Source: a virus. From it: a DNA stretch of 64,000 nt. The stretch lies in IMG/VR virus record IMGVR_UViG_3300021197_001489, positions 62,001 through 126,000 of that record. One strand, 5' to 3'. Position 1 is the stretch's first letter. The number at the start of each line of letters is the position of its first letter. The notes under the pieces are model-generated. The model saw nothing but the letters and a program-made list of their open reading frames with translations, made no database searches and had not been told where the DNA came from. Shown here one piece after another: positions 14,109-31,481 of the stretch. Both the position numbers and the translations under genes were made by a program.

Positions 14109-14773
14109 ACGTAAAACTTGTATCTTATTCAACCCCCACTAACGAGTGGGCATCTGAAGGCCTTGACGATTTACAAGATCTAATCGCATTTTGTGCTAAG
14201 GTATCAAACCCTAGCGCACAGATCAATTTGGAAACAGCTGAACGCTTGCTAAATTATCTAGTAAAACACCAGCACTGGTCACCATTTGAAATGGTCAGTG
14301 CTTGTTTAGAAATTGAAACCACTAGAGATATTGCACATCAGATTGTCAGGCACAGAAGTTTCTCGTTTCAAGAATTCTCACAGCGTTATGCAGAACCCAA
14401 AGAAATGGGCGAAATTTTTGAATATGCTGAAGCACGTTTACAAGACACAAAGAACAGACAAAACAGTCTAGAAACTGAAAATGTAGATTTACATCACGCA
14501 TGGCATGAGCAACAAGAAAAAGTTGTTGAAGCAGCACAAGATGCATACGAGTGGGCTATAGAAAATGGTATTGCCAAAGAACAAGCTCGCAAGGTATTAC
14601 CCGAAGGCTTAACTAAAACACGTTTATACATGAACGGGACAATTCGCAGTTGGATTCACTACATTGATTTGCGGGGAGCTAACGGTACACAAAAAGAACA
14701 CATGGAGATTGCACATGCCTGCGCAAAAGTCATCAAAGAAGTCTTCCCGCAAATCCAAAACTACACAACCTAA
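14105..14773 (+). CDS. thyX: Flavin-dependent thymidylate synthase
   Basis: A 222-residue ThyX. The signature RHRSFSFQEFSQRY (~83-96) matches RHRxxSxxxxSxRY, and the C-terminal half has the LPEGLTKTRLYMNGTIRSW segment. ThyX makes dTMP from dUMP using FAD, NADPH and methylene-tetrahydrofolate. Phages carry it to supply thymidine for DNA replication. The following epimerase gene overlaps its 3' end by 59 nt. Confidence 0.95.
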   Translation: MNVKLVSYSTPTNEWASEGLDDLQDLIAFCAKVSNPSAQINLETAERLLNYLVKHQHWSPFEMVSACLEIETTRDIAHQIVRHRSFSFQEFSQRYAEPKEMGEIFEYAEARLQDTKNRQNSLETENVDLHHAWHEQQEKVVEAAQDAYEWAIENGIAKEQARKVLPEGLTKTRLYMNGTIRSWIHYIDLRGANGTQKEHMEIAHACAKVIKEVFPQIQNYTT

Positions 14774-15734
14774 AAACAAAATTCTAGTCACTGGCGGACT
14801 TGGTCTTATTGGTCACAATGTTGTAGCACAACTGCAAGCCAGTGGTCACAACGTACAAATTATAGATGCACTAACAACTTACGGTTCAATTGATCGAGAT
14901 GAGTTAGAATATCTATACAACGAACGTCTTACTAAGATCAACAAAAACACACAGATTTACAAAATTGACATTGCTGATGAAGCTGTAGAAGAAATATTCA
15001 GCAAGTTTAAGCCTGACTATGTTATTCATCTTGCCAGTTTTCCAAGAGAAAAAGCTGTTAAGAATAACCCAGTAGAAGCAGCACACACTATGGGGCAAGG
15101 ACTTGCTCGTGTGGTCGATTGTGCAATGCGCTGCAAAGTGAAAAAGTTGATGTATGCCAGTAGCAGCATGGTTTACGGCGACTTTGAAGATGGCGTCAAA
15201 GAAGATGCACAACTCAATCCCAAAGGTGCATATGCTATTTGGAAGATTGCTGGTGAACAACTGGTAAAAGACTACCATCGCCAATATGGATTGCCCTATG
15301 CAATTGTGCGTCCCAGTGCAGTGTATGGTCCACTGGACGTTGGTGATAGAGTTATTGCAAAATTTTTAATTGCTGCTATGCGCGGTAGAACTCTCAATGT
15401 AAATGGTGCAGACGAAAAGCTAGACTTTACCTATGTAGAAGACTGTGCTGCTGGAATTATTGCTGCAACACTTAGCAAACACACAGGCACTTACAATATC
15501 ACAAAAGGCCACAGTTGCACTCTGGAGCAAGCTGCTAACCTTGCAGTCAAACTGGCAGGCAGCGGCACAGTTAATGTTGTTGGAAAAGATTCAGACTTTC
15601 CAAGTCGCGGTGCATTAAACATAGATGCAGCTAAAGCGGACTTCAATTACAATCCCACAGTGGACATCCAAAAAGGATTTCAAAAGTATTATAAATGGCT
15701 TACAAATTCCAGTTACTGGAAAGAGAAAATCTAA
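14715..15734 (+). CDS. NAD-dependent epimerase/dehydratase (extended SDR)
   Basis: From ATG 14715 the protein is 339 residues. After a basic 20-residue leader (SSKKSSRKSK) comes the NAD-binding TGGLGLIGHNV, then a catalytic YAIWK (Tyr and Lys, ~174-178) and VRPSAVYGP. The family converts nucleotide sugars (UDP-glucose 4-epimerase type). The start lies 59 nt inside thyX, which is unusual, but the Rossmann motif leaves little room for a later one. It begins a run of sugar-pathway genes (aminotransferase, oxidoreductase) on the same strand. The exact sugar is not predictable. Confidence 0.85.
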   Translation: MPAQKSSKKSSRKSKTTQPKNKILVTGGLGLIGHNVVAQLQASGHNVQIIDALTTYGSIDRDELEYLYNERLTKINKNTQIYKIDIADEAVEEIFSKFKPDYVIHLASFPREKAVKNNPVEAAHTMGQGLARVVDCAMRCKVKKLMYASSSMVYGDFEDGVKEDAQLNPKGAYAIWKIAGEQLVKDYHRQYGLPYAIVRPSAVYGPLDVGDRVIAKFLIAAMRGRTLNVNGADEKLDFTYVEDCAAGIIAATLSKHTGTYNITKGHSCTLEQAANLAVKLAGSGTVNVVGKDSDFPSRGALNIDAAKADFNYNPTVDIQKGFQKYYKWLTNSSYWKEKI

Positions 15735-15737
15735 AAA

Positions 15738-16817
15738 ATGAAAATACCTTTTACAGACTTGCAGAGTCAGTATCAAGAATGTAAAACTGAAATTGATGCA
15801 GCAATTGAACATTGTTTGCATACCAATAGTTTTATTACTGGCAAAGACACAACACTTTTCGAACAAGATATGATTGCATACACAGGTGCAGAAGCCTGTA
15901 CAGCATGTGGTAGTGGCACTACTGCTCTGCAAATATCTCTTAAAGCATGCGGTATTGGTCCTGGTGATGAAGTTATCACTGTAAGTCATACTTTTGTTAG
16001 CACGCCAGAAGCAGTTTGCACAGTTGGTGCTACGCCTGTGTTTTGTGATGTCGACGAATACAGTATAATAGACATTGCACAAGCAGAAAGTTTAATCACA
16101 GAACGCACCCGAGCAATACTGTGGGTTGACCTATACGGGCAAACTCCTGATGTTGATGCAATTGTTGCACTGTGTAAAAAGTACGGGCTGTACAGCATTG
16201 CAGATGCAGCACAGAGCTTTGGTTATCAATACAAAGGTCGCCGGGTTGGGAGTCTGGCGGACTTAACTTGTATCAGTTTTAATCCAGTGAAAAACTTGGG
16301 TGCGATTGGCGATGCTGGCTGTGTTACAGGACGCAAGGACTTGGTTGATCTGGCAAGATACTATAGTAATCACGGTAGAGATACAAAGTATGTGTACGAA
16401 TACTTGGGATATAACGCTCGCATTGATAATATTCAAGCTCGGGTAGTGCAAGCAAAACTTCCATACTTGCAAGGCTGGTTGGATCGCAAGTATGAAATTG
16501 CGCAATACTACCATAAAGAACTAGCAGGATATTATATTACGCCAATAGAACATGATTGGGGGCAGCACAGTTACTATGTGTATGTTGTTGAGCATGTGGA
16601 TCGTGATAGAGTGAGAACAGCATTGCTTGAACAAGGCATTCAAACAAATATTCACTATGCTAATCCAGCACACAGTACGCCAGCGTTTGCACCGTGGCAT
16701 CGCAGTTTGCCTGTCACAGAACGTAAGAGCGCAAATATTTTCAGTATACCAGTGTACCCGCACCTAACAGATCAACAAGTAGAATACATTGCGGAAAAGT
16801 GTAAGGATGTAGCATGA
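15738..16817 (+). CDS. DegT/DnrJ/StrS-family PLP aminotransferase
   Basis: A 359-residue sugar or cyclitol aminotransferase. The N terminus has the FTDLQSQYQECKTEI pattern, ACGSGTTALQISLKA (~57-71) binds PLP phosphate, DAAQSFG (~156) holds the pyridine-binding Asp, and FNPVKNLG carries the Schiff-base Lys at 185. These enzymes move an amino group from Gln or Glu to a keto-sugar or keto-inositol. It is 3 nt after the epimerase and overlaps the oxidoreductase by 4 nt. With that oxidoreductase it could oxidise then aminate a sugar or inositol. Confidence 0.9.
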   Translation: MKIPFTDLQSQYQECKTEIDAAIEHCLHTNSFITGKDTTLFEQDMIAYTGAEACTACGSGTTALQISLKACGIGPGDEVITVSHTFVSTPEAVCTVGATPVFCDVDEYSIIDIAQAESLITERTRAILWVDLYGQTPDVDAIVALCKKYGLYSIADAAQSFGYQYKGRRVGSLADLTCISFNPVKNLGAIGDAGCVTGRKDLVDLARYYSNHGRDTKYVYEYLGYNARIDNIQARVVQAKLPYLQGWLDRKYEIAQYYHKELAGYYITPIEHDWGQHSYYVYVVEHVDRDRVRTALLEQGIQTNIHYANPAHSTPAFAPWHRSLPVTERKSANIFSIPVYPHLTDQQVEYIAEKCKDVA

Positions 16818-17683
16818 GAATGAATTTAGTAGGAGCTGGCTATTGGGGCAGTAAACTTTTAGCAAGTCTCAAACAGTTTGATGTTGATGCTACAGTAATT
16901 GACATACGCAACGGGCAAACCATTGATGATATCAAAAATCTCGACCCAGTAATACTGGCAACACCACTATGGCAGCACCATGAACAAGCTGTTGAACTAC
17001 TTAAACGAGGGCATGATGTTTACGTTGAAAAACCAATGGCAGAAACTGCTGCCGAAATCAAAGATATTGCACGTTACCTAGAGCCAGGCCAGTTAATCAT
17101 GGTAGGTCATATTTTCATACATCATCCGCAGCTCAAATTGATTGAAACCATCATTGACAATGATGACATTGGTGATCTAAATCATATTCGAAGCGAACGC
17201 ACAAACTGGGGCATTTATCAAACCAAAACAGATCCTGTTCTAAGTTTAGCAACACACGACATTAGTATTGTAAACCACTTTCAGGCACCATTAAATATAC
17301 AAAATGCACAATCATGGAACTACAGCAACAATATTGTTCCTGATAGAGTATGGTTTAGTGGCATACCTGGTTTTGATATTGATGTTAGTTGGTACAGCCC
17401 TGTGCGTGTTCGGCGAACTACATTTTTAGGCAGCAAAGGACAGATTGTATGGGATCAAGATGCCAATACTGTTACTGTGAGCAACCACACTGTGGAAGAT
17501 CGTAGAAGTAAAACTGATACGCAGCCAAAGGTGTACCACTATGGATATGAATATTCGCCACTGGAATATGAATTAAAACATTGGGTAGACTGTGTACGAG
17601 AACGCCGCGATCCAAGTACAGGCATTGACAACGCACTGGCAGTTGCTACTGTTATTGACAAACTCAAAGAATTCCGTACTTAG
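16814..17683 (+). CDS. Gfo/Idh/MocA-family oxidoreductase
   Basis: A 289-residue NAD(P)-dependent dehydrogenase: Rossmann GAGYWGSKLL (8-17), EKPMAETAAEI (~73-83) with the catalytic Lys-Pro, and a C-terminal beta-sheet domain ending SPLEYELKHWVDCVRERRDP. The family oxidises sugars or inositol at a hydroxyl. It follows the aminotransferase with an ATGA overlap. Its last 20 nt overlap the end of the convergent gene 17664-19229. Confidence 0.88.
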   Translation: MRMNLVGAGYWGSKLLASLKQFDVDATVIDIRNGQTIDDIKNLDPVILATPLWQHHEQAVELLKRGHDVYVEKPMAETAAEIKDIARYLEPGQLIMVGHIFIHHPQLKLIETIIDNDDIGDLNHIRSERTNWGIYQTKTDPVLSLATHDISIVNHFQAPLNIQNAQSWNYSNNIVPDRVWFSGIPGFDIDVSWYSPVRVRRTTFLGSKGQIVWDQDANTVTVSNHTVEDRRSKTDTQPKVYHYGYEYSPLEYELKHWVDCVRERRDPSTGIDNALAVATVIDKLKEFRT

Positions 17684-19229
17684 ATTCAAAACGATCATTA
17701 AGCCAGTTCCAATCAAAAGCAGCTTTAAGTTTAACTAGATCTGGGCCAGTCTGCTCAAAAAATTCTACGCCATCACGAGCACCGTTAAGTACCCACTCAC
17801 TGTATTCGCCATGTGCTTTAGAAGTCCATACATGCAATCGGTGCCGGTTTTCTATATCAGGTTTTTCAGTTTGGAAGTAAGCCAGTTTTGAAGTTTCTCT
17901 AAATGCTGTACGCCACGCTTGATACGGCGAAGTTGCAAAATGTCCAAAGCAACTGAGTTCAGGCACTACCTCAACTGGAAAACTCATTGTAAAGTCTAGT
18001 CCTAGTTCACTATAGTCAGCACTCTCAATTATCATACGATTGTTGTATAACACAACGCCCATATGTCCATACACCAGGTCATTGCTCATGTTTTTACAGT
18101 TAAAAATATAGTTCTTAGGAACCTGCATATAGTCGGGCACATAGTTAAATTTAAAATCTGGATTTAATGCAGTTTTTGCAAACACATGATAACTCCAGGG
18201 TGTACTGCTTTTTGAACTAGCTGCTTTTAGTGCTTGCTGCATACCATTGATCCCATGTACTCTATGAACAGTGTTAGGCAAATCTTTTGTTATTTCTAGC
18301 AGTATAGCATAATTCTTTTCTGCATCGATTTCATCATAGCTGATATAAACAATGTCCTGCGGCTGTGCAGGATATACTGGGTAGGTTTTATCTACCCAAG
18401 GATAATCATACACCTGTGTCTTTAAATAATTTTTCACTTCTCGCGGAATAAGCACTGTACTGGCCCCGTCAATTAAAGGCACAACTGTTTTGGTTCGCTC
18501 TTGCCACAGACTGATCACAGGCGCTGAAATACGCATGTCACGGTAGAACACAGCGTAAGGATCCGTAAACTCATGTTGCCAAACTGCATCCACTACACTG
18601 TCTGACTCATACTTAATAAACTGTGTGCTGTGCCTTGCAACGCTTACGCCTTCAACAAAGTGCAGTGTTTCGAACCATTCTAGCACTTTTAAATTTTCTG
18701 TTTTGGACAAAAAACTAGGTACATGTACATAAAAGGTATCGCCAAACTTTTGTGTTTCACTGGCAAACACATGCAGCATGTCTGCTTGAAATTCGCTAGG
18801 ATGCCAGGTGAAATCAAAGTCATCATATATGCAAATATCACTGGTAACCCAGCAGTATTCCCAGTTGGTTTTCTTTAATACACGACGCATTGTGCCAAGG
18901 TAGTCACTGATGTAGCGAGTATGAATATCACCTTGATCTGTACTACTTGGTGCATGCTTGATGTGCAACCTGGGTGCTTGTCCTGTGCGCTTCACTATAC
19001 TGTGATTGTAGTTTTTGTCGTCTGCACCTTGTTTAGGTACAAGCATGGTGCCTGAATTCTCCTGATGCTGACTGGGCCACACATGTATTTGGTTGCTTTC
19101 CCACGGAACTGGTTCCCAAGTAAAGTCAAAGTCGGAATAATCACAGTGCGCATCTAGCACCCATAAGTACCTAGTCCTGCTTAAAGCACGGGCTTCTTCA
19201 ATATTGGATGTATAAAATTTATCAAACAT
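17664..19229 (-). CDS. Large protein with FDFTW repeats, GT-related (521 aa)
   Basis: The 521-residue protein contains two clear copies of a ~45-residue unit: one at ~20-65 (SDFDFTWEP, IHVWPSQHQ, GTMLVP) and one at ~122-170 (DDFDFTWHP, LHVFASETQ, GDTFYVHVP). A fainter third is near 345-380 (PDFKFNYVP). The C-terminal QAWRTAFRETSK resembles HAWRAGFREGVK in the protein at 35173, so the two are relatives. Both have YISYDE at the start of a putative nucleotide-sugar-transferase-like domain. I know the type only as a marine phage protein of unknown function. The start codon overlaps that of the divergent gene. Confidence 0.65.
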   Translation of the reverse strand: MFDKFYTSNIEEARALSRTRYLWVLDAHCDYSDFDFTWEPVPWESNQIHVWPSQHQENSGTMLVPKQGADDKNYNHSIVKRTGQAPRLHIKHAPSSTDQGDIHTRYISDYLGTMRRVLKKTNWEYCWVTSDICIYDDFDFTWHPSEFQADMLHVFASETQKFGDTFYVHVPSFLSKTENLKVLEWFETLHFVEGVSVARHSTQFIKYESDSVVDAVWQHEFTDPYAVFYRDMRISAPVISLWQERTKTVVPLIDGASTVLIPREVKNYLKTQVYDYPWVDKTYPVYPAQPQDIVYISYDEIDAEKNYAILLEITKDLPNTVHRVHGINGMQQALKAASSKSSTPWSYHVFAKTALNPDFKFNYVPDYMQVPKNYIFNCKNMSNDLVYGHMGVVLYNNRMIIESADYSELGLDFTMSFPVEVVPELSCFGHFATSPYQAWRTAFRETSKLAYFQTEKPDIENRHRLHVWTSKAHGEYSEWVLNGARDGVEFFEQTGPDLVKLKAAFDWNWLNDRFESKYGIL

Positions 19230-20286
19230 GATTAGAATCGACGAAATTTACGATAATGTTTTTGTGCCGTTGGCCAAACGCAAAGGACGAGATGTTGTTA
19301 TACACTGGTTTCATCCATTTGGCACAACAGAATTTAAAAATTTGGTTAACAAACAACCAATTGACAGCATAAAAGACAAAAGAATTATTTGCTGGGATCA
19401 AGAACCACTGCATCGTGATAGATTCGAACCTTTTATAAAAGAATTTTTGCATACGCATCTAGATCCTATGCAATTACGTTTAATGACCAGCGAATATAAT
19501 AGTGACAGTGTCCGATGGGCTAGCGATACTTATGGACTTGAAAGCGACTACTATTTCTTTCATGGATGGGCTGCACTCGATTGGTATCGCGGTTATAATA
19601 GAACTAGTTTAGCACAACCTTTTTCAGAACGCAAGCCTTATAATACATTTCTTTGTCCTAATAACATCATTGGTGGCGAACGAAAACACAGGATTGAACT
19701 GTTAAATGAATTGGTAAACAGAAACTTATTAGAAAAGAATTCAATATCATTTCCCGACGTGTGTCCTTATGAAGGACTCAGCTTAAAAGCATTGTGCGCA
19801 AAGTATTCAATCCCGATGCCCACAGTGAATTTGCCACTCACAATTGACAACGGCTCAGGATACGCTGCTCAAAGTCACAGAATTGACTTATGGGAGCAAG
19901 CAAACAACAGTCTGATACATGTGGTTACTGAAACTGCGTACGGCGGAAACAGGCAACATCTAACAGAAAAAACTTTTAAGCCTATTGTGATGCAACAGCC
20001 ATTTATTATACAAAGTTGTAGAGGCAGTTTGGAATATTTGCGCAGCTACGGATTTAAAACATTCTCAGAATTCTGGGACGAGAGCTATGATAACTGCGAT
20101 GACCAAACTAGAACTGCAAAAATTGGACAGTTAATGCAGGATCTCAATTCAATGAGTCAAAAAGAAAAGGCCTCGTTGCAAAATGCTGTAAGTAGTACAG
20201 TATGGTGGAATCAACAATGGTTTTATGGAGAGATGTTTGAAAAGCAGCTTTGGGCTGAACTCAACAGCATGACAAAACAATGGTAA
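19228..20286 (+). CDS. Glycosyltransferase-like protein, paralogue A
   Basis: The 352-residue protein has a C-terminal GT-B-like donor-site region: HVVTETAYGG, then HLTEKTFKPIVMQQPFII, a Gly/Leu-rich LEYLRSYGFKTF and DESYD. The LTEKTFKP pattern resembles the nucleotide-sugar site of fucosyltransferase-like or capsular glycosyltransferases. The next gene repeats this arrangement, so they are tandem paralogues. Its ATG overlaps the divergent ATG at 19227-19229 and no Shine-Dalgarno is visible, so a start a little downstream is possible. Donor and acceptor unknown. Confidence 0.65.
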   Translation: MIRIDEIYDNVFVPLAKRKGRDVVIHWFHPFGTTEFKNLVNKQPIDSIKDKRIICWDQEPLHRDRFEPFIKEFLHTHLDPMQLRLMTSEYNSDSVRWASDTYGLESDYYFFHGWAALDWYRGYNRTSLAQPFSERKPYNTFLCPNNIIGGERKHRIELLNELVNRNLLEKNSISFPDVCPYEGLSLKALCAKYSIPMPTVNLPLTIDNGSGYAAQSHRIDLWEQANNSLIHVVTETAYGGNRQHLTEKTFKPIVMQQPFIIQSCRGSLEYLRSYGFKTFSEFWDESYDNCDDQTRTAKIGQLMQDLNSMSQKEKASLQNAVSSTVWWNQQWFYGEMFEKQLWAELNSMTKQW

Positions 20287-21452
20287 CATTTTGTGCAGAT
20301 AAATTTGTAGGCAACAAGCCTTATCCCAATTGTGCTACATGGGAGGCACAACCCTTTACGACTGAATGGCGACAGTTCAGTGTTAATGCACCGTTCAGTG
20401 AACCAGTACATTTTTACGAATATCTTGATCAAGAAGGTATTGAGTACACTGTGTTTGACACAGAACTTGCACCCGAAGGCAGTGTTTATCCAATTAGCCT
20501 CAGTTTCTTTGATTTTGACATAAATTGGTTTGAAATTATTCCAAAAACAGTGGTAGATCGTTTGGTAGAGAACCGATTGAAAATTTGGTTTTTCTATTCT
20601 GAGGGAGATAACCCTTTTCGCATAAAAAAACATATTGAAAAACAAATGGTTATTGCTGGCATTTCCACTGAAAACCTACATTTTACCACTGCAAACACTA
20701 AAAGTCACGATCTTGCACAGTTTAGCTACCTATGTGACGACGAGCTTCTATACAGGCTCCGTAATCAAGGTTTAGCAACTGAGTACCACGAAAAGCCACG
20801 CAGTAAAAACTTTACAGCACTGGTGCGCACACACAAATGGTGGCGTGCTAACACCATGGCGCGGCTATGGAGCAAGGGTTTGAACGAACGCGGATACTTC
20901 AGCTACAATAACAGTCTTGACGTAGGCGATGTTCCAGAAGACAACCCCATTGAAATTGACAGCTTTGGCAGTCTCAAGCATCACACAGAATTCTTTTTAA
21001 AGCAGTGTCCTTTTCATGCAGATCTGCTATCCAGCAACGAACACAATCTCTATCATCACACTGTGTACACACATCACGACGATGCATATTTTAACTTTGT
21101 AATTGAAACGCATCTTGATGTTGACCAAAGTGCAGGTGTGTTTTTGACAGAGAAAACATTTAAACCAATTAAACATGCACAGCCGTTTGTTATTGTTGGT
21201 GCCGCTGGCAGCATACAACAATTGCGTGATATGGGTTACCGGACGTTTGACTCAGTGATCAATCACGAATACGACACTATTGAAAACAATACCAAACGCT
21301 GGGATGCAGTGTGTACTGAAATGGAACGCATTGCCAAAAATAAAAGAATACACGAAATGTATATACAATGTAAAGATGACATACTGTGGAATCAACAATT
21401 ATTTTTAGCCAGCAAAGCTGACAGATTAAAAAAGGTACTAGAACAACTATGA
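20280..21452 (+). CDS. Glycosyltransferase-like protein, paralogue B
   Basis: A 390-residue relative of the previous gene. It shares VIETHLD, FLTEKTFKPIKHAQPFVIVG, QLRDMGYRTFDSVINHEYD and a C-terminal WNQQLFL that matches WNQQWFYG in paralogue A. The N-terminal ~180 residues differ from paralogue A, suggesting a different acceptor. It overlaps paralogue A by 7 nt and the amidinotransferase by 4 nt. Probable glycan-building enzyme; target unknown. Confidence 0.65.
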   Translation: MVTFCADKFVGNKPYPNCATWEAQPFTTEWRQFSVNAPFSEPVHFYEYLDQEGIEYTVFDTELAPEGSVYPISLSFFDFDINWFEIIPKTVVDRLVENRLKIWFFYSEGDNPFRIKKHIEKQMVIAGISTENLHFTTANTKSHDLAQFSYLCDDELLYRLRNQGLATEYHEKPRSKNFTALVRTHKWWRANTMARLWSKGLNERGYFSYNNSLDVGDVPEDNPIEIDSFGSLKHHTEFFLKQCPFHADLLSSNEHNLYHHTVYTHHDDAYFNFVIETHLDVDQSAGVFLTEKTFKPIKHAQPFVIVGAAGSIQQLRDMGYRTFDSVINHEYDTIENNTKRWDAVCTEMERIAKNKRIHEMYIQCKDDILWNQQLFLASKADRLKKVLEQL

Positions 21453-22474
21453 GCAAAGTAAGCAGCTACACCAGTTGGCAACCACTTGAAGAAGTTATTG
21501 TTGGCAGAGCATACACACCTGACTATTTTGACTTCATTGAAAATGCACAAGTGCGAGAGCAACTGCAATTGATATTAAGTGAAACCAATGAAGACTTGGA
21601 CAACTTGCAAAAGACTTGCGAACAGTATGGTGCTATAGTCAAACGGCCTAATTTGCCCACTAAAGATAACTTTCAAGAATGGCAAACATCAGGACAAGGT
21701 GCGCCACTTCCGCCACTGACACCGCGCGACTGGCAGATTAGTCTCGGTGACAAGTTGCTGCGTGTACTGCCAATTGATGAATTAAACGATATTTGCACTG
21801 AATATGGTGAGCAAGTGATTAATCCACATGGAGAAACATTTGATCCAGACTGTATCTTAAACGGTGCTAGTGCTAGCTGTATTGTGCGTGTTGGTCGTGA
21901 TGTGTTCTTTGACAACAGCGAACACTTGCAGCCTCATCAAACAGACTGGATTGTGAAAAACGTACTGAGTTCAGAATATAGAATACACGAAGCAATCACA
22001 GACGGACACGGAGACGCTGTATTTGCTATCCTTAAACCTGGCGTGTTGCTATCAAGCAAATGGGACGACCAACTTGATCTTGCTGGCGACTTTCCGGGCT
22101 GGGATGTTTGTAAAATTTGGGATAGCTCAATTTGGGCAGCAATGGAAGTTGGCAAGTTCAAAGAAGAAAATTTCAATGGTGCCTGGTATGTACAAGGACA
22201 AACACCCACAAAAGAATTCAGCGACTTTGTTGATACCTATCTAAACAAATGGGTAGGCTTTGTTAGCGAGACTGTGTTTGATGTAAACTGTCTGGTGCTA
22301 GACGAAGAGAATGTTGTGTTCTCAGCATACAACAAACAGGTATTTGATTACTGTGAAAAGCACAAAATCAATCCGATTATTTCTGAACTGCGTCACAGTT
22401 ACTTTTGGGATGGTGGTGTTAGCTGTTGCACACAGGATATTAGACGGTCTGGGGAACTAGAAAGTTATCTCTAA
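21449..22474 (+). CDS. Amidinotransferase (glycine/inosamine type)
   Basis: A 341-residue member of the amidinotransferase family. It starts SSYTSWQPLEEVIVG, has the LTPRDWQISLGDKLLR segment (~90-105), the catalytic His in DGHGD (H187) and the active-site Cys in GVSCCTQDIRR (C326 or C327). These enzymes move an amidino group from arginine to an amine, giving a guanidino product: creatine precursors, or guanidino-cyclitols in streptomycin synthesis (StrB1). It closes a + strand run with sugar enzymes. Its last 4 nt overlap the opposing MIP18 gene end. Confidence 0.85.
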   Translation: MSKVSSYTSWQPLEEVIVGRAYTPDYFDFIENAQVREQLQLILSETNEDLDNLQKTCEQYGAIVKRPNLPTKDNFQEWQTSGQGAPLPPLTPRDWQISLGDKLLRVLPIDELNDICTEYGEQVINPHGETFDPDCILNGASASCIVRVGRDVFFDNSEHLQPHQTDWIVKNVLSSEYRIHEAITDGHGDAVFAILKPGVLLSSKWDDQLDLAGDFPGWDVCKIWDSSIWAAMEVGKFKEENFNGAWYVQGQTPTKEFSDFVDTYLNKWVGFVSETVFDVNCLVLDEENVVFSAYNKQVFDYCEKHKINPIISELRHSYFWDGGVSCCTQDIRRSGELESYL

Positions 22475-22773
22475 CAGTCCCAGCCTAAAGCAAATTTTGT
22501 TTCCTCAGGGATCATATCTGGTCCAAAAGGAGGATCCCATACTAATTCACGTTCTACTTTATTCACACCTTCAACAGACATTGCAGCATCATATATATTC
22601 TGACATATTTGATCTGCAAAAGGACACATCATACTTGTAAGTGTGTGCTTTATAATTACGCTTTCTGCTGTGCAATCTATGTGATATATTAATCCAAGAT
22701 CATATACGTTCACACTAATCTCAGGATCATATACTTCACGCAGTGCGCCTATAACTTTCTCTTCTAACTGCAC
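22471..22773 (-). CDS. MIP18/DUF59-family Fe-S assembly protein
   Basis: The 100-residue protein starts LEEKVIGALREVYDPEISVN and has VYDLGLIYHIDC and MMCPFADQI, the signature of the MIP18 (DUF59, SufT/PaaD-like) family. These act in iron-sulfur cluster assembly or insertion; the Cys in MMCPF is the usual reactive residue. It is the last gene of the long - strand operon that holds five radical SAM proteins, which need 4Fe-4S clusters. A supporting role for them is the natural inference. Confidence 0.85.
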   Translation of the reverse strand: MQLEEKVIGALREVYDPEISVNVYDLGLIYHIDCTAESVIIKHTLTSMMCPFADQICQNIYDAAMSVEGVNKVERELVWDPPFGPDMIPEETKFALGWDC

Positions 22774-24362
22774 ACTTTTACTCCGTATTCTTTTTCAAAT
22801 CTGTCTGCGTCTTCACGAGTGTCTACCATTGGTTCTCCTCGTATGTTTAACGAAGTATTTAACAGCATTGGACAGCCAGTTTCTGCATGCCATGCTTCCA
22901 GCAACTGTCGTATTCCTGATCCATCAGCAGGCACAGTTTGCACTCGCGCTGTGCCATCATGATGTGTGATAGCAGGAAACTTGAGAGGATACTTAACCAG
23001 GGCAACTATTTGCATGTATCGACTTGTGCGTTGATTTACAGGCATGTTGAAATAGTCATGCACATGTTCTTCCAGTATTACAGGAGCAAATGGACGAAAC
23101 TGTTGTCTGCGCTTTATTTTGTTTACTTGATCTTTTATCTTTTTGCCGCGCGGGTCAGCAAGTAAACTTCTGTTGCCTAAAGCTCTTGGTCCAAATTCTG
23201 CTTTTCCACTTGCTACTCCCACTATCTTTTTGGTCTTTAATTCTGTGATCAATTCTTTTACAGGGTATTCACCACCAATGTTGGTGCCCAAGAAAGGAGT
23301 TGTCCAGTTCAGGTTGCTGCCATATGCTAATGCGGCTGCACCTAAACTTGAACCAGCATCACCAGGGTTGGGCATGATCCAAACTTGATCGAACAGCTTA
23401 CCTAGTTGGCTGTTTGCTACACAGTTTAGTGCAACGCCGCCCATGTATACCAAATTCCTACTGCCAGTTAGTTCACGAGCTTTACGCATCACTGCCATAA
23501 TCAATTCTTCGCAGAGCTGTTGTCCAGCGGCAGCAATTTCCCAGTCTCCGGTGCCTGGGAAGAATTCAACATCTTGCATGCCAATGTGCAAGTTTTGTTT
23601 AAAAGTTGCTGTGTCTACATCGTGTATCAGTGTATCACGAAGCGATGCAACTGCCATGCCTGCTTTACCGCCGTATGCTGCCATACCCATTGTGATGTAC
23701 TCTTCATCCATCGGCCTGAGGCCTACACGCTTTGTTACTGCACTATAAAACATTCCAATGCTGTGTGGATACTTTTGACAGTAAACACGCTTGTAGCGGG
23801 CTTTTTTGCGCTGTTTACACCCCATATAAGCAGGAGTTGTGCCGTGGTCTGCTTTGTAGATGCTGATGGTATCCATTTCGCCAATGGCATCGATTACCAC
23901 TACTGCCGCTTCTTTAAATGGGCTTGTCTGAAACCCTGCGGCAGCATGACTTAAATGGTGACTGACACTGCTTATAGGTTTATATGGACGTTTTATTAGC
24001 GACGTTGCATTGGCAATATCAATATTTGCAACAGTCTCTTCATCCGACGTTGACCTCCAGTGTTTGTTCATTATTAAGGGAATAGTGGATTTCAGTTCAC
24101 TTTGTAACAGCCAGGAACCTCCCCACGGTTCGCCACTGCGTATTTTACGCAACTGACGTTTCCAAGGCTTTTCGTAGTAGACAATTTCATCAAAAGGTCC
24201 ATACTCTAGTGCAGCACGTTCCAATGCTTCACAGATAGTGCTGTCGTTTTTCTTTTTACTATAGCGTTCACTGTGAGCAGCAAAAACAATTTCATCATTG
24301 TGCAAAACTGTTAATGCTGCATCATGGAATCCTGCACTTACTCCAAGTATTTGTTTGGTCAT
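22764..24362 (-). CDS. NodU/CmcH-family carbamoyltransferase
   Basis: The 532-residue protein has the actin-like/Kae1-like N-terminal domain (GVSAGFHDAALTVLHNDEIV, HHLSHAAAGF ~138-147 with metal-binding His, VVVIDAIGEMD) and the YrdC-related C-terminal region (EFGPRALGNRSLLADPR ~393-409, FRPFAPVIL). The family carbamoylates sugars or antibiotic scaffolds through carbamoyl-adenylate. It overlaps both neighbours, so it is part of the operon. It probably decorates the sugar or cyclitol made by the other enzymes. Confidence 0.92.
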   Translation of the reverse strand: MTKQILGVSAGFHDAALTVLHNDEIVFAAHSERYSKKKNDSTICEALERAALEYGPFDEIVYYEKPWKRQLRKIRSGEPWGGSWLLQSELKSTIPLIMNKHWRSTSDEETVANIDIANATSLIKRPYKPISSVSHHLSHAAAGFQTSPFKEAAVVVIDAIGEMDTISIYKADHGTTPAYMGCKQRKKARYKRVYCQKYPHSIGMFYSAVTKRVGLRPMDEEYITMGMAAYGGKAGMAVASLRDTLIHDVDTATFKQNLHIGMQDVEFFPGTGDWEIAAAGQQLCEELIMAVMRKARELTGSRNLVYMGGVALNCVANSQLGKLFDQVWIMPNPGDAGSSLGAAALAYGSNLNWTTPFLGTNIGGEYPVKELITELKTKKIVGVASGKAEFGPRALGNRSLLADPRGKKIKDQVNKIKRRQQFRPFAPVILEEHVHDYFNMPVNQRTSRYMQIVALVKYPLKFPAITHHDGTARVQTVPADGSGIRQLLEAWHAETGCPMLLNTSLNIRGEPMVDTREDADRFEKEYGVKVCS

Positions 24363-24804: not shown

Positions 24805-24906
24805 CTATTTGTAAATGAAAGGATCGCGCTTGCGCAATTCTTTGAGTTTCTTGCGATATCGTATCTCAAGTTTAATTTTGTTAATTAAGTTTTTAATCCA
24901 TTTCAT
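24805..24906 (-). CDS. Tiny basic helix protein (33 aa)
   Basis: The - strand frame 24906 to 24805 encodes MKWIKNLINKIKLEIRYRKK followed by a tail ending KRDPFIYK, an amphipathic, very basic helix. Its ATG overlaps the stop of the preceding gene (ATGA). I recall similar short ORFs ending DPFIYK in marine T4-like phages. It might bind membrane or RNA; unknown. Confidence 0.5.
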   Translation of the reverse strand: MKWIKNLINKIKLEIRYRKKLKELRKRDPFIYK

Positions 24907-25961
24907 AGCAGTGGTACCTGTAGCTGTTTGCTGTCACGCCAGGTGTAATCATATTCGGCGTATGCACGAGATGTTTTTATACTGTACACATCCAAATGCT
25001 CTGTTAAAATACTTAGTGTTTCGTGAAAGTCCGTAGTAGAAAAACTTGCATCGAGATCCACTTGTGCTACTTTAGGATGTCCAATTGTTAGACTTGAATC
25101 GTCTGGATCGAAGTTGTTAATCACAAGCCATTCGCGAAAATCAGCTAAATGTTCTTGCATAAACGCTTGACCTCCTGGGTCTTTGCCCCATTCAATATCA
25201 AAGTCACCTGCTGCTTCCGTTTGCGGTTTAAGTGTTGTTGTTGTAAGTTCGTCTATGCGACTGTCTCTGCCTTCGTCTTGAAACACTTCCCAATGATGCT
25301 TGCCAACTGCTTTGTTTACCCCAACGTATACCCCGCCATGGTGGCGTGCAATAGTGTCAATTCCAAACAGTTCATAATCCTGTTCGTCGAGTATGAATCG
25401 CGGCGCATTTAACCAACACATAACATTGCTAGGACGAACCCATTCTGGTGCAGTTTTGTGTTTTGCATTGCTTAGTATAAGACATTCAGCTTCGTGACAT
25501 AGCAAGTTTAATTGTCGAATATGCCAGCGGGTTTCTGCATCGGCTTGGTTGTAGTGATGACTCATTGCACCGCTTACGCCTTGTGTTTCTTCAAAGTACA
25601 AATGTAACTGGTTGAATTTGTCATGATTAGCAGTAAATGTATTGCCGCCGGCGGAGCGTTTGTATGCTGGTTCAACAACATTGTCTACTGTAAAATGATC
25701 ATCAATATGGTAATCAATGTTACCGTTGTTAATACCCACAAACGTTTGATTGATTTGTTGGACAAGTAAATCCAGATTCCGTTCTCCTTCTGGGAAACCA
25801 AAGAAGCAGTAGTTCTTTTCGAGGTGGCAGTTTTTTTCAAGCAGTTCCTCCAATGCCGGCAGCCATTTGCGACTTAGACTGTTATCGTATACATCAATGT
25901 ACACAGGATAAAGATCGCTGGTTTGGTTGTGTCTTAATTTTATTTCTATCCTATCCAGCAT
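24903..25961 (-). CDS. Hypothetical protein (352 aa)
   Basis: A 352-residue soluble protein with no familiar domain. Noticeable segments are NHDKFNQLHLYFEETQG near 114-130, a His-rich GAMSHHYNQAD, and a paired HHGGVYVGVNKAVGKHHWEVF near 210-230. His and Asp richness could indicate a metal site. It lies between a radical SAM gene (11-nt overlap) and the tiny basic protein, so it is probably part of the same pathway. Confidence 0.55.
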   Translation of the reverse strand: MLDRIEIKLRHNQTSDLYPVYIDVYDNSLSRKWLPALEELLEKNCHLEKNYCFFGFPEGERNLDLLVQQINQTFVGINNGNIDYHIDDHFTVDNVVEPAYKRSAGGNTFTANHDKFNQLHLYFEETQGVSGAMSHHYNQADAETRWHIRQLNLLCHEAECLILSNAKHKTAPEWVRPSNVMCWLNAPRFILDEQDYELFGIDTIARHHGGVYVGVNKAVGKHHWEVFQDEGRDSRIDELTTTTLKPQTEAAGDFDIEWGKDPGGQAFMQEHLADFREWLVINNFDPDDSSLTIGHPKVAQVDLDASFSTTDFHETLSILTEHLDVYSIKTSRAYAEYDYTWRDSKQLQVPLL

Positions 25962-27273
25962 CTATGCTATCCCACCATGATAATACTTCTTGATCTGCAC
26001 TCAGTATATCTTTCATACAAAACAAATCTTTTCTAATACGTTCCAATGTAAGTATGCGTTTTTTGCCTTTGACCATACCGCTATCATACTCGTCAGGCCA
26101 CTGTTCTGCCATAGTTGGACGATTCTTTAACTGTAACAGTACATCTTTTAATGCGCTACCAAAGTTATTATCTGTAATTAGTTTGTCTACAATACGATCT
26201 AAGGTTTTTCTTGGCAATGCCAGTGGACTCATAATAATATCTGGCGTAAATGTAAATGTAACTTTGGCCAGTATGTCTACGTCTAATTCATCTGCTAGCT
26301 GTTGCATGTTTACAACATCAAACAAGCCCGGTAATGTGAGTGTAAAGTCCAGACGCATTTGCCGACGGTGCATGGCTATACTTGTGCCTTGTTTGAAATT
26401 TTCTACAAACTGATCGTATTTTAATCCTGTGCGTATATATTCTCCAATAGCACCAGTGCCATCTATGCTTGCACACATTTGCCAATCTCTAATGTTTGAG
26501 AGTATGTCTGTGTACAAGTTAATGCCTTTGTAGTTTACTCTACTAAGGTTGCTGTTGTATCGTGCATACAGTCTCGGCCCGTCGCCCAATTCAATGATGC
26601 GTTTCATGTAACGCCAATGCTGTTCATACATCAGCGGCTCGCCGCCTACCCAGTATATTTCTTCTATTCTGTGTTCTTCAACTGCTGCGGCAAATTCTTT
26701 TTCAATTTGTTCATCTTGAAACTTAGAGATCTTTTCACGCACATCAGGCAGCATCCAGTTGTTGCTGGAATTATTCCAGTTGATCATGTTGTGCTGTTTT
26801 TGTTCACTTTCCCAACTACTGCTCAACATGTCTCCACACATTCTGCATTTGAAATTGCAAAGATTGCTAAAACGATAGTCCCAACTAACGGGCTTCATAG
26901 TGGTGTAACCAGATTCTTCAGTACTGTCCCAAATATCATCATACTTGTGTCGAAACAACTGTTCAAAGTAACTTCTGTACACATCTGTGTTTAGCAGTTT
27001 GCTATTGCACACGTCACATTCAGGAAGAGTTTCACCGGCCATCATTCGTCGTCGAACACTCTGCATATGATCGTTGTTCCAGTGTTCTTCCAGTGTTTGC
27101 GGGTTGTATATACCAGAGCCTGACTCAGTGTCAATGTACTGTTCAAAGCTCTGCGCAGGCTCGCGACTAGCACAACACAATCTGCGTTCAGTTTGTGGAC
27201 TAAGATAAGTGTGTGTCCATGGGGCCATGCACAGTGTAGGCGGCCTGTTTTCAGGTTTAGATGCCACTCTCAT
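25951..27273 (-). CDS. Twitch-type radical SAM protein 1 (440 aa)
   Basis: The radical SAM core carries NLCNFKCRMCG with Cys at 139, 143 and 146, which bind the 4Fe-4S cluster that cleaves SAM, followed by YWVGGEPLMY. The ~135 residues before it hold four further Cys with the operon-wide pattern (C15, C33, C86, C89), consistent with an N-terminal twitch domain binding an auxiliary cluster. C33 is followed by another Cys. The family is known from sequence only, so the substrate is open: peptide, sugar or lipid. The end overlaps the next gene by 11 nt and the start overlaps the cytidylyltransferase by 17 nt. Confidence 0.85.
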   Translation of the reverse strand: MRVASKPENRPPTLCMAPWTHTYLSPQTERRLCCASREPAQSFEQYIDTESGSGIYNPQTLEEHWNNDHMQSVRRRMMAGETLPECDVCNSKLLNTDVYRSYFEQLFRHKYDDIWDSTEESGYTTMKPVSWDYRFSNLCNFKCRMCGDMLSSSWESEQKQHNMINWNNSSNNWMLPDVREKISKFQDEQIEKEFAAAVEEHRIEEIYWVGGEPLMYEQHWRYMKRIIELGDGPRLYARYNSNLSRVNYKGINLYTDILSNIRDWQMCASIDGTGAIGEYIRTGLKYDQFVENFKQGTSIAMHRRQMRLDFTLTLPGLFDVVNMQQLADELDVDILAKVTFTFTPDIIMSPLALPRKTLDRIVDKLITDNNFGSALKDVLLQLKNRPTMAEQWPDEYDSGMVKGKKRILTLERIRKDLFCMKDILSADQEVLSWWDSIDAG

Positions 27274-28259: not shown

Positions 28260-28436
28260 CTAGAACGCATCCATTATAAGTTCTTGTATACGTTTTTCTA
28301 AGTCGTCGTTTTCTTGTTCAATCAATGCAACCTGGTTGCGCAGTTCTTCAATGCGATCTTTGCGCTGATGCATAAGATCGCGCAGCTCATTTAACACTGT
28401 GTTTAGTCTTGCTGCTAGTTCTGCTGGATCGTCCAT
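28260..28436 (-). CDS. Small coiled-coil protein (58 aa)
   Basis: The - strand frame 28436 to 28260 encodes MDDPAELAARLNTVLNELRD and continues as one acidic-basic heptad helix to LIMDAF. Its ATG overlaps the stop of the nucleosidase gene (TAATG), a common coupling signal. It is the second short coiled coil in this operon and may pair with the one at 27667. Confidence 0.55.
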   Translation of the reverse strand: MDDPAELAARLNTVLNELRDLMHQRKDRIEELRNQVALIEQENDDLEKRIQELIMDAF

Positions 28437-28999
28437 TATATCAATTCCAATTGGTCATTGTCTAGCACTGGCTGTTTTTCCAGTACTTGTCTTTTAAACT
28501 GTTCCGCACCTTTGTGTACATTGTCTTTCCAGTCATCTCCGTCTCCGCTGTCTGAGATAAATTTGTAGCAGTCAAAGGGCAATCCAAACTTGGTAGAAAC
28601 TTTTGCTAGTGCGTAGGCTTCCATTTCACACACTTGATAGTTAATATGCGGCGTGCTAAAACTGTCACCGGTTCCACAAACGTACAAGCTGTCATGTTTG
28701 GTATCACACACAATCATTTGTTCTTCATCACCAGGTGACACATACAATGGCAAGCCCAGTGGTGTACAATCCATATCGCGCTCAATTACTGCACTAATAC
28801 CAATCAGTTTGCCTACCATTTCTGGTAACCCTCCAGCACTACCATAGTTTACCACTTTACTGTATAGATTATTATAGCACAGTTCTGAAGTCAATGCAAT
28901 GGTAGCATTTACCTTTCCTACACCTGTAATTAACTTTTTATATCCTAGTGGCAGCGGGCCAGGTAATTCTTCTTCTAATGCAACTACTACCAGGATCAT
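28436..28999 (-). CDS. Nucleosidase/phosphorylase-family protein (MTAN-like)
   Basis: The 187-residue protein has the purine-nucleoside phosphorylase fold: MILVVVALEEELPG start, TGVGKVNA (~25-32), NYGSAGG (~50-56) and the substrate site VCEMEAYALAKVSTKFGLP (~124-142). In MTA/SAH nucleosidase the same EMEA holds the ribose, and the FISDSGD segment supplies the catalytic Asp. It is shorter than typical MTAN (~230 aa), missing part of the middle. MTAN also removes 5'-deoxyadenosine, the inhibitory by-product of radical SAM enzymes, four of which are encoded just upstream in the operon. Confidence 0.78.
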   Translation of the reverse strand: MILVVVALEEELPGPLPLGYKKLITGVGKVNATIALTSELCYNNLYSKVVNYGSAGGLPEMVGKLIGISAVIERDMDCTPLGLPLYVSPGDEEQMIVCDTKHDSLYVCGTGDSFSTPHINYQVCEMEAYALAKVSTKFGLPFDCYKFISDSGDGDDWKDNVHKGAEQFKRQVLEKQPVLDNDQLELI

Positions 29000-30198
29000 T
29001 GAGGTCCCCCATATTCAATTGCTTCGGCTAGTTCGCTGTGATGGCTACGCAAGTCTTGACTTCTGCGCCAGTCAACATCTGCTACTTTCATGCGCAAGAT
29101 ATTGCCATCAAGGCTAGCACCACCGTTTATAAAGTCAATGATATTGTCAAACTCTTTTCTGTGGTATGCAGTTACGTCAGCATCTTGCAAACGTTTGATA
29201 GCTACTTTCTTTGCTGCTTCGGGCAGTGTGCTTACACTGTGATAGTATGCTTCGTGCAGCATATTCCAATACACAAAGTCAAACTTGCGTGTGTCTATCC
29301 ATTTCGCAAGTCCTTCGAGGTACATTACATTGAACACATTAACTGTAGAGCATACCTGTAATTGCATGTTGTTGCTCCGGTCGCGCATTGCTTCAAAGCT
29401 ATCGATGTTGCTGTTTACTTCAGCCCATACAGCATTGGCTCTTTGATATTCAAATCGTTCGTCAACGTCGTCGATTGAAAAAGCAACTTCTACCAGTTTG
29501 AAGTGCTGCCAAATTTCTTCCGCATGCTCTGGATAGTGTGTGCCGTTTGTGTTGTAGTGTATTTCAATATTGCCAGCAATGCCTCTATCTATACAGCGTT
29601 TTAGTAATTCAAAGTGTTCTTTGATCATAAATGGTTCACCGCCAGTAAACTCCAAGTAGCGAATTTGATCCATCATAGGATCCACTGTATTCCAAAATTC
29701 TACATTCTTTCTTGGCCACGCGCCTTTTTGTAACATCTCGTAGTGAAAGCTGTCTTTGCCTTCAAACTTGACTTCTTCGGTTGCAAATGTACTGCTGCTC
29801 CAACTTCCGCAAATACGACATTTGAGGTTACAGATGTTGCCCAATTTAAAATCAATGAATATAAGCGGTTTAGCATCTTGTGTCCATTCTGTGTCTGGGA
29901 CAATGTGTTTGAGTCTATCCAGTGTGTGCATGCGTTTGCTTGTGCGACCGCTTCGTTCTTCATTCCAGCATTTCCTACAAGTTTGCGGCTTCTTGCCATC
30001 CAAGAAGTCTTGCCTAAGATTATTCATGTAATTACTGTGATGTATTTCATTTAGTGTGTTGGTATTGAGATCATATTTGTTACCATCAGTATCCTTGATC
30101 TCATCTTCTGCCAAACAACAAGGACGAGTTGTGCCAATTGGGCTTGTTTCAATACTGATCCAAGGAAGCACACAAAACTTATCGTGTGGTATTTTCAC
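28996..30198 (-). CDS. Twitch-type radical SAM protein 2 (400 aa)
   Basis: NICNLKCRICGSW places the radical SAM Cys at 123, 127 and 130, followed by LEFTGGEPFMI. N-terminal Cys at 9, 27, 74 and 77 match the operon-wide twitch pattern (C-x17-C, then C-x2-C). The FCVLPWISIE and RPCCLAEDE stretches are shared with protein 3, its closest relative here. It overlaps the nucleosidase gene by 4 nt and protein 3 by 4 nt. Substrate unknown. Confidence 0.86.
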   Translation of the reverse strand: MKIPHDKFCVLPWISIETSPIGTTRPCCLAEDEIKDTDGNKYDLNTNTLNEIHHSNYMNNLRQDFLDGKKPQTCRKCWNEERSGRTSKRMHTLDRLKHIVPDTEWTQDAKPLIFIDFKLGNICNLKCRICGSWSSSTFATEEVKFEGKDSFHYEMLQKGAWPRKNVEFWNTVDPMMDQIRYLEFTGGEPFMIKEHFELLKRCIDRGIAGNIEIHYNTNGTHYPEHAEEIWQHFKLVEVAFSIDDVDERFEYQRANAVWAEVNSNIDSFEAMRDRSNNMQLQVCSTVNVFNVMYLEGLAKWIDTRKFDFVYWNMLHEAYYHSVSTLPEAAKKVAIKRLQDADVTAYHRKEFDNIIDFINGGASLDGNILRMKVADVDWRRSQDLRSHHSELAEAIEYGGPQ

Positions 30199-31481
30199 GT
30201 TAGGACTCCTAGCTCTGGAATTGCATCCAGGATATTTTCTTTTCTAATACTGTCGAGTTGATTGGTTTTCTGCCAAAATTTTTCAATAAGTGCAGTATTA
30301 TCTGTGCTGTTCATATACTGCAATGCACTTTCAAATCCTACTGTTGCTCTATTAAGTTGGTCCAACGGACGCAACCATTCTAAATGGTCACGGTACTTTT
30401 GTTCAATTTGATCTTTGTATGCTTGCGGCGCAATATCGATGCGCAAGTACGCAGGGTCTTGTAAAATATTTACATTGAGGTCTTGCGGCTTTAGCAATCC
30501 TTTATCAACCCAATCTCTGTGAAAGTCAGGCAAGTGCAGTGCATTCATAATGCTTAGTGTTGGAGAAATATAAAAGTCTACCTTGGGACAGATTTCCATC
30601 ATGGTAATTCTATTCTGTTCAATCTCTTTCCATTTAGTTCCTTTGCGTATATACTCGCCGTGTATACCCGAGGCGTCTAGGCTGGCACCAACGGCTACAC
30701 TGTCAAACTTTTTCCAGTAGTCAAATACCAGTCGGTCTTTGAGTTTGGTTTGTGTAAAGTTTGTGTTATAGATAAGACGAACATCGAAGCGTCCTCTGCG
30801 TTCTAGTTCTTCCAGTATAACATAATGCTCGTCCATCATGCAAGGCTCGCCGCCTGCAAAGTAAATCTGCTCTACGTGATCCAAGTGTTCAAACAACTGA
30901 TCCATCATATCAGTCTCAAAACGCCCAGCATAGTTTAACGGCTTGTTTTTCTTTGCCCATTCAGGTCCAGCTAGTGCTACTTGATCTTTGTACCAACTTG
31001 AACTAAAGATATGACCACAGCTTCGGCAACTTAAATTGCACAAGTTTGAAAAGCGAATGTCCCAGTAGGTCATTTCAAAATCGTCATATCCACCGTCTGC
31101 TTGCGTTTCAAAAACTCTGCTAATGTGGTGTCCATGGTGCTTGTTTGCGCTTTGACGTCCTGAAAAGAAACCTGATTTTTCTTGCTCATAACAACGTCCG
31201 CATGCAGGATTGTGTTGCTCCGTTAGCATGTCTACACGCAATTGTTTTTGCTCAGGTGAGTTCCAAATTTCCTTCATGGTGTTATTTTTGCAGTTGCCCA
31301 CTTGCCCTACACCCATTTCAGCATGACAACAAGGATATGCTTCGCCTGTTGGATAAGCATGTAGGTGTATCCAAGGATACATGCAAAACGTTTTGCTTTC
31401 TGTTAGCAGTGTACGTTCACGCGGGTTTAGATCAGCAAGCGCAATTTTGATTGGCTCGCTACTGTTGTAATTATAGCTCAT
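30195..31481 (-). CDS. Twitch-type radical SAM protein 3 (428 aa)
   Basis: Radical SAM motif NLCNLSCRSCG (Cys 148, 152, 155) followed by IYFAGGEPCMM. N-terminal cluster Cys at 33, 51, 94 and 97, with FCMYPWIHLHAYPTG and YPCCHAEMG. After the second Cys pair the EIWNSPEQKQLR segment is typical of SPASM/twitch proteins that act on peptides or sugars. It overlaps proteins 2 and 4. Confidence 0.86.
   Translation of the reverse strand: MSYNYNSSEPIKIALADLNPRERTLLTESKTFCMYPWIHLHAYPTGEAYPCCHAEMGVGQVGNCKNNTMKEIWNSPEQKQLRVDMLTEQHNPACGRCYEQEKSGFFSGRQSANKHHGHHISRVFETQADGGYDDFEMTYWDIRFSNLCNLSCRSCGHIFSSSWYKDQVALAGPEWAKKNKPLNYAGRFETDMMDQLFEHLDHVEQIYFAGGEPCMMDEHYVILEELERRGRFDVRLIYNTNFTQTKLKDRLVFDYWKKFDSVAVGASLDASGIHGEYIRKGTKWKEIEQNRITMMEICPKVDFYISPTLSIMNALHLPDFHRDWVDKGLLKPQDLNVNILQDPAYLRIDIAPQAYKDQIEQKYRDHLEWLRPLDQLNRATVGFESALQYMNSTDNTALIEKFWQKTNQLDSIRKENILDAIPELGVLT

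Follow-up and report, generated by a model that had tools for sequence, protein, structure and literature searches.

Two separately inherited gene units meet in a T4-like jumbo phage genome, one encoding an amidinotransferase-like enzyme of a virus-only clade

We analyzed a 64,000-nucleotide stretch (the window; G000:62001-126000) of the 316,012-base virus record IMGVR_UViG_3300021197_001489, focusing on the genes between window positions 14715 and 22474, for which a first-pass annotation had proposed a streptidine-like trio of aminotransferase, Gfo/Idh dehydrogenase and amidinotransferase. These genes form two separate units that meet in a few phages: unit 1, epimerase-DegT-Gfo/Idh (14715-17683), which is a swap cassette, and unit 2, two glycosyltransferase (GT)-like genes followed by an amidinotransferase-like gene that we call AMT1 (19228-22474). 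AMT1 falls in a clade that is virus-only so far as searched and in which one residue of the catalytic triad is replaced. Our tentative reading, whose chance we put a little short of even, is that AMT1 amidinates a glycan, or a glycan precursor, on which the GT pair acts.

The gene order is epimerase, DegT and Gfo/Idh on the plus strand, a 521-residue protein on the minus strand, and GT, GT and AMT1 on the plus strand. The three enzyme families and two GT-like genes listed by the first-pass annotation are present, but the three enzyme genes do not make up one run: the minus-strand gene at 17664-19229, behind which unit 2 lies, and the two GTs stand between Gfo/Idh and AMT1. An IMG/VR scan with AMT1 gave a best 80 loci at 74-88% identity; each scan was taken to its best 80 matches, and loci counts include near-identical contigs and so are not independent samples. 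In the 54 of these loci (window included) that reach from ThyX to the radical S-adenosylmethionine (SAM) genes, hereafter the spanning loci, AMT1, the GT family, the opposite-strand gene, the carbamoyltransferase and the radical SAM genes were each present in 54/54. The DegT gene was found in 49/54, the epimerase in 48/54 and Gfo/Idh in only 6/54, and identity to the window DegT was ~28% in most loci and ~50% where Gfo/Idh was present. When the scan was reversed using Gfo/Idh, DegT immediately preceded Gfo/Idh in all 25 loci recovered; of the 21 loci long enough to cover the position of AMT1, 15 lacked it. Large records carrying Gfo/Idh contained amidinotransferases only of more distant kinds. 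No Gfo/Idh relatives were found in seven records of this phage group that carry AMT1 or AMT3 and measure 286-364 kb, a search made without a positive control, though the same query found relatives elsewhere. Loci drawn by the radical SAM gene and extending beyond the carbamoyltransferase held an amidinotransferase in 53/53. The identity of the radical SAM gene at 28996 seemed lower where AMT1 was absent, but kinship confounds this comparison and it was not used. Since Gfo/Idh and AMT1 are inherited independently (the 6/54 and 15/21 counts), we rejected the trio as one pathway.

AMT1 (21449-22474, plus strand) matched no Pfam or NCBIfam model and only an unnamed PHROG. By phmmer it resembles human GATM (7e-15), HsvA (3e-10), StrB1 (9e-10) and SxtG (6e-9), and a profile of its family retrieved GATM at 1e-26 (97 bits) and StrB1 at 1e-18 (71 bits) by hmmsearch. 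This profile similarity, together with a Cys/His/Asp/Asp core, assigns AMT1 to the GATM/StrB superfamily with a predicted pentein fold. We built a tree of 39 proteins, leaving out HsvA and SxtG. Clade A holds StrB1, GATM, bacterial enzymes, Campylobacter phage enzymes and AMT3, a second amidinotransferase of this genome; clade B (support 100/99) holds AMT1, a third copy (AMT2), extra copies in related phages, one cyanophage enzyme and two marine single-cell-phage enzymes. The tree has long branches, and placements inside the clades are unsure. AMT1 thus lies apart from StrB1, to which the first-pass annotation had likened it, and also from creatine-type GATM. When bacterial genomes were searched with the alignment of clade B, a single distant homologue emerged, which fell outside the clade, so that clade B is virus-only within the reach of these searches; plasmids yielded nothing beyond 22-24% matches, and these were to enzymes of StrB1/GATM type.

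This placement bears on whether AMT1 is instead a small-molecule enzyme, either an arginine:glycine enzyme of the creatine type or one supplying ornithine or polyamines, that alters host metabolism and adjoins the GTs by mere genome order. GATM is its best match among solved structures by the bit scores above, and an ocean survey assigns viral guanidinoacetate enzymes to creatine synthesis (PMC11360552). However, AMT1 does not group with GATM, its paralogues too adjoin sugar genes, and almost every locus shows translational coupling of AMT1 to a GT, the overlap or gap between GT b and AMT1 being -30 to 10 nt in 71/76. We consider the small-molecule role decidedly unlikely. That the clade belongs with neither GATM nor StrB1 also calls into question the filing of viral amidinotransferases under creatine synthesis.

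In GATM, Asp254, His303 and Cys407 form the catalytic triad (PMC3684758). The equivalents of Asp170, His303, Asp305 and Cys407 (GATM numbering) were kept in all rows aligned, and correspond in AMT1 to D94, H187, D189 and C326. Asp254 was kept in every clade A row, including StrB1 and GATM, but was replaced by Asn, Ala, Gln or His in clade B, except in the cyanophage row, where the alignment is ambiguous; for AMT1 another alignment places a Ser at this position, likewise not acidic. This dyad residue is replaced in every AMT1 copy examined and in almost every clade B member, which would fit an AMT1 that has lost transferase chemistry and serves as a deiminase-like hydrolase or as a binding or scaffolding component of the glycan or radical SAM apparatus. 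We judge such a loss unlikely: all 20 clade B rows retain the Cys, the His and the two Asp residues that bind the guanidinium group, and AMT1 is under strong purifying selection, with a pairwise ratio of nonsynonymous to synonymous substitution rates (dN/dS) of ~0.04, the lowest among the genes compared, though dS is near saturation.

The two proteins encoded upstream, GT a (19228-20286, plus strand; TEKTFKP motif) and GT b (20280-21452, plus strand), had no sequence-family match in Pfam or PHROG; GT b clusters with GT a as its paralogue and overlaps the start of AMT1. An AlphaFold model of GT a (predicted local distance difference test score, pLDDT, 87.9) was compared with known structures by VIA-align, which gave a Z of 11.8 to T4 beta-glucosyltransferase (BGT; root-mean-square deviation 4.8, 276 residues aligned), 11.0 to T4 alpha-glucosyltransferase, 10.7 to a GT10 fucosyltransferase and 9-11.8 across ~185-285 residues to many GT-B enzymes. 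On the strength of this model, GT a is predicted to adopt a GT-B fold; Foldseek returned no match to the model at E < 0.001. The two T4 enzymes at the head of this comparison, and a ThyX gene just upstream, raise the alternative that phage DNA is what the GT pair and AMT1 modify, yielding a guanidino-glycosylated base. Ordinary GT-B enzymes reach nearly the same Z values, a common fold does not establish function, and no base-hydroxymethylating enzyme was recognized, so we hold DNA decoration to be highly unlikely.

Under the reading that we favor, the active-site cysteine of AMT1 would accept an amidino group donated by arginine or a different guanidine compound, forming an amidino-Cys intermediate, and pass it to an amine on the glycan or precursor on which the two co-translated GT-B enzymes act. 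The glycan, which might be destined for the virion, the host surface or DNA, would thereby gain a charged guanidino group. The carbamoyltransferase and five twitch-domain radical SAM enzymes encoded downstream probably decorate the same glycan; these enzymes and, in the subclade of this phage, an MTA/SAH (methylthioadenosine/S-adenosylhomocysteine) nucleosidase and an Fe-S assembly protein would fit a heavily decorated glycan. In favor of this reading we count the coupling of AMT1 to its GT, the constant neighborhood in the spanning loci, the amidinotransferase in 53/53 loci drawn by the radical SAM gene, the low dN/dS of AMT1, and the company of sugar and radical SAM genes that amidinotransferases keep around AMT3, in L022 and L061 and in unrelated phages, as set out below. 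Several observations weigh against it. AMT1 lacks the Asp254 that every clade A member keeps, which leaves the transfer chemistry uncertain. In four of the Gfo/Idh loci (L140-L143), both GTs are kept and AMT1 is cleanly absent, the GT and carbamoyltransferase genes standing tail to tail at its slot, so the GTs can function without AMT1. AMT1 is also nearly constant across loci whose DegT has been swapped, and the acceptor is therefore probably not the local DegT product. Gene neighborhood, moreover, does not equal pathway. The weakest links are the acceptor and the missing dyad Asp.

Unit 1 consists of an NAD-dependent nucleotide-sugar epimerase/dehydratase, Epi (14715-15734, plus strand; PF01370 E 2.6e-46; PHROG 540 E 2.8e-60), a DegT/StrS pyridoxal phosphate (PLP)-dependent aminotransferase (15738-16817, plus strand; PF01041 E 1.8e-98) and a short Gfo/Idh/MocA dehydrogenase that overlaps the DegT stop (16814-17683, plus strand; PF01408 E 7.7e-10). 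In phmmer comparisons with solved structures the DegT protein scored 260 bits to QdtB and 241 bits each to WbpE and DesV, as against 95-106 bits to 2-deoxy-scyllo-inosose (2-DOI) aminotransferases; to an StsC-like plasmid protein (L130) it scored ~70 bits. These values place it with sugar 3-aminotransferases and not with StsC as had been supposed. Its top match, 7b0d (321 bits), is named 'glutamine--scyllo-inositol transaminase', which we take to be an automatic label. The Gfo/Idh protein scored 69 bits against the UDP-N-acetylglucosamine (UDP-GlcNAc) 3-dehydrogenase model NF040723 (cut-off 450) and 43 bits against the inositol 2-dehydrogenase (IolG) model (cut-off 355); it thus appears nearest to UDP-GlcNAc 3-dehydrogenase, though far under the family cut-off, and an inositol-dehydrogenase type is not supported. 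Together the two enzymes suggest a 3-amino nucleotide sugar: most likely, a nucleotide sugar would be oxidized at C3 and then aminated to give a nucleoside diphosphate (NDP)-3-amino-sugar. In this comparison with 3-amino-sugar pathways, an acyltransferase was not identified.

AMT3, which encodes 306 residues at G000:271825-272745 (L085:9825-10745), lies 188 kb from AMT1 and outside the window. It scored 194.6 bits against StrB1 and 91 against GATM, groups on the StrB1 side of the tree (98/95) and keeps all triad residues, and by these measures is the true StrB1-like enzyme of the genome. A match with stops had suggested a pseudogene, which we rejected, as this match is the intact 306-residue gene. 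Most of 22 IMG/VR loci share a run of a nucleotide-sugar dehydrogenase, an Asp/Arg-hydroxylase-like dioxygenase, the amidinotransferase and a divergent GT, the last a homologue of GT a and a member of the GT family of the window; no inositol dehydrogenase was seen around AMT3. AMT2 (349 residues; G000:232028-233077, L084:10028-11077) lies near structural genes and small uncharacterized genes.

These data also bear on a streptidine-like guanidino-cyclitol pathway, in which Gfo/Idh, DegT and AMT1 would act as inositol dehydrogenase, scyllo-inosose aminotransferase and inosamine-phosphate amidinotransferase. The superfamilies do match those of StrI, StsC and StrB1, and AMT3, elsewhere in the genome, sides with StrB1; but with AMT1 outside the StrB1 clade, a DegT of sugar 3-aminotransferase type, a Gfo/Idh nearer to UDP-GlcNAc 3-dehydrogenase and units inherited separately, we find the pathway barely tenable. 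A plasmid gene in L130, which adjoins a StrB1-like gene and carries the annotation 'streptomycin biosynthesis protein', was considered as StrI and rejected, as it reads as ParB-like.

Downstream of AMT1 the genes run on the minus strand. They encode a MIP18/PaaD-type Fe-S assembly protein (22471-22773; PF01883 E 7e-16; 7/54 spanning loci), a possible support for the radical SAM enzymes; a NodU/TobZ-type O-carbamoyltransferase (22764-24362; PF16861/PF02543; 54/54); and a 352-residue protein modeled as a cyclophilin-like barrel with a large helical insert (24903-25961; pLDDT 85; 53/54), which gave VIA-align Z values of 7.4-8.8 to cyclophilins and 4.7 to the next fold, while a profile search of solved-structure sequences returned nothing informative. 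The five twitch-domain radical SAM proteins lie at 25951-27273 (292 bits), 28996-30198 (338 bits), 30195-31481 (406 bits), 31471-32823 (288 bits) and 33740-35179 (303 bits), all exceeding the curated cut-off of 170 bits for NCBIfam NF033640. Among them is an MTA/SAH-nucleosidase-like gene (PNP_UDP_1; 28436-28999, minus strand; PF01048 E 7e-11) that may clear radical SAM by-products, and some relatives carry in this cluster a MetK-like gene (L007:12959-14062), possibly another support for SAM chemistry. The family-less 521-residue protein at 17664-19229 (minus strand; no Pfam or PHROG match; 54/54 spanning loci) has homologues of ~511 to 1784 residues, their length apparently set by repeated 'DYSDFDF.W.P..W' modules, and a paralogue at 35173-36099. 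Baseplate genes in the window bear out the phage origin assumed at the outset and, with their jumbo-myovirus relatives, indicate that the record is a T4-like jumbo phage; beside them one 4510-residue open frame occupies 41875-55407 on the minus strand. Other genes encountered include a phage-encoded Gram-negative porin (PF13609), a TctA tricarboxylate-transporter subunit and a PnrA-like substrate-binding protein (L085:468-1331; L086:13496-14830; L121:16250-17320); GTP cyclohydrolase I and a QueE-like protein (L121:15497-16192; G000 ~41265), possibly for 7-deazaguanine synthesis; and many SGNH-hydrolase-like genes with a GDSF/GCSF motif scattered across these glycan regions (L117:2313-4050; L044:11066-11758; L072:3842-4627).

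Amidinotransferases pair repeatedly with glycan or radical SAM genes in relatives and in unrelated phages. Two related loci (L022, L061) carry an extra copy within an epimerase-amidinotransferase-DegT run, overlapping both neighbors. Cyanophage S-SCSM2R has a run of GT, GT, GT, DegT-like, radical SAM, GT, dioxygenase, 'inosamine amidinotransferase' and GT2, and its second amidinotransferase adjoins KdsA/KdsB. A marine single-cell phage contig encodes a radical SAM protein, a carbamoyltransferase, two SGNH-like proteins and an amidinotransferase, and Campylobacter phages place an amidinotransferase among groups of five radical SAM genes, accompanied in CP220 and F379 by GT-A-like genes. Given this company of GTs, aminotransferases and nucleotide-sugar enzymes in unrelated phages, the amidino (guanidino) sugar that the first-pass annotation envisaged was a fair guess, whereas its streptidine-type trio is not supported. 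A broader proposal, which we regard as doubtful, is that several unrelated groups of large phages have the making of guanidino-bearing glycans in common: enzymes of the virus-only clade without the dyad Asp, translated together with GTs and associated with a carbamoyltransferase and several radical SAM enzymes, would add amidino groups to glycans that the phages make, for example on the virion or on the surface of infected cells.

In the open-access literature searched, we found no phage glycan bearing a guanidino group and no earlier description of the virus-only clade, its loss of the dyad Asp, its co-translation with GT-B enzymes or the separate StrB1-like module. If AMT1 does amidinate a glycan, the installing of a positive charge would extend to an entire clade of jumbo phages from fresh and marine waters, and the puzzle of radical SAM and amidinotransferase genes in Campylobacter phages would gain a testable explanation. 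A clade without the dyad Asp also offers a natural test of the role of the Asp254 residue.

Among known systems, unit 1 resembles the 3-amino-sugar pathways of WbpB/WbpE, QdtB and GnnA/GnnB in pairing a dehydrogenase with a DegT aminotransferase, acting there at C3 of a nucleotide sugar, but differs in being phage-borne and in its short, divergent Gfo/Idh, which falls below the curated cut-off. StrB1 (1bwd) shares with AMT1 the GATM/StrB superfamily and the Cys/His and two substrate Asp residues, whereas AMT1 belongs to a separate virus-only clade without the dyad Asp. Human GATM (1jdw), the top-scoring solved structure for AMT1, groups instead with bacterial and StrB1-type enzymes, and its Asp254 is not kept in AMT1. 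In Campylobacter phages CP220/CPt10, radical SAM genes and a putative glycine amidinotransferase were noted in 2010 without a function (PMC2853527). As in the window, the amidinotransferase there lies among several radical SAM genes, and CP220 has two nucleotide-diphospho-sugar-transferase-like genes; unlike the window, no carbamoyltransferase is annotated in the stretches examined, and the Campylobacter phage amidinotransferases keep Asp254 and fall outside clade B.

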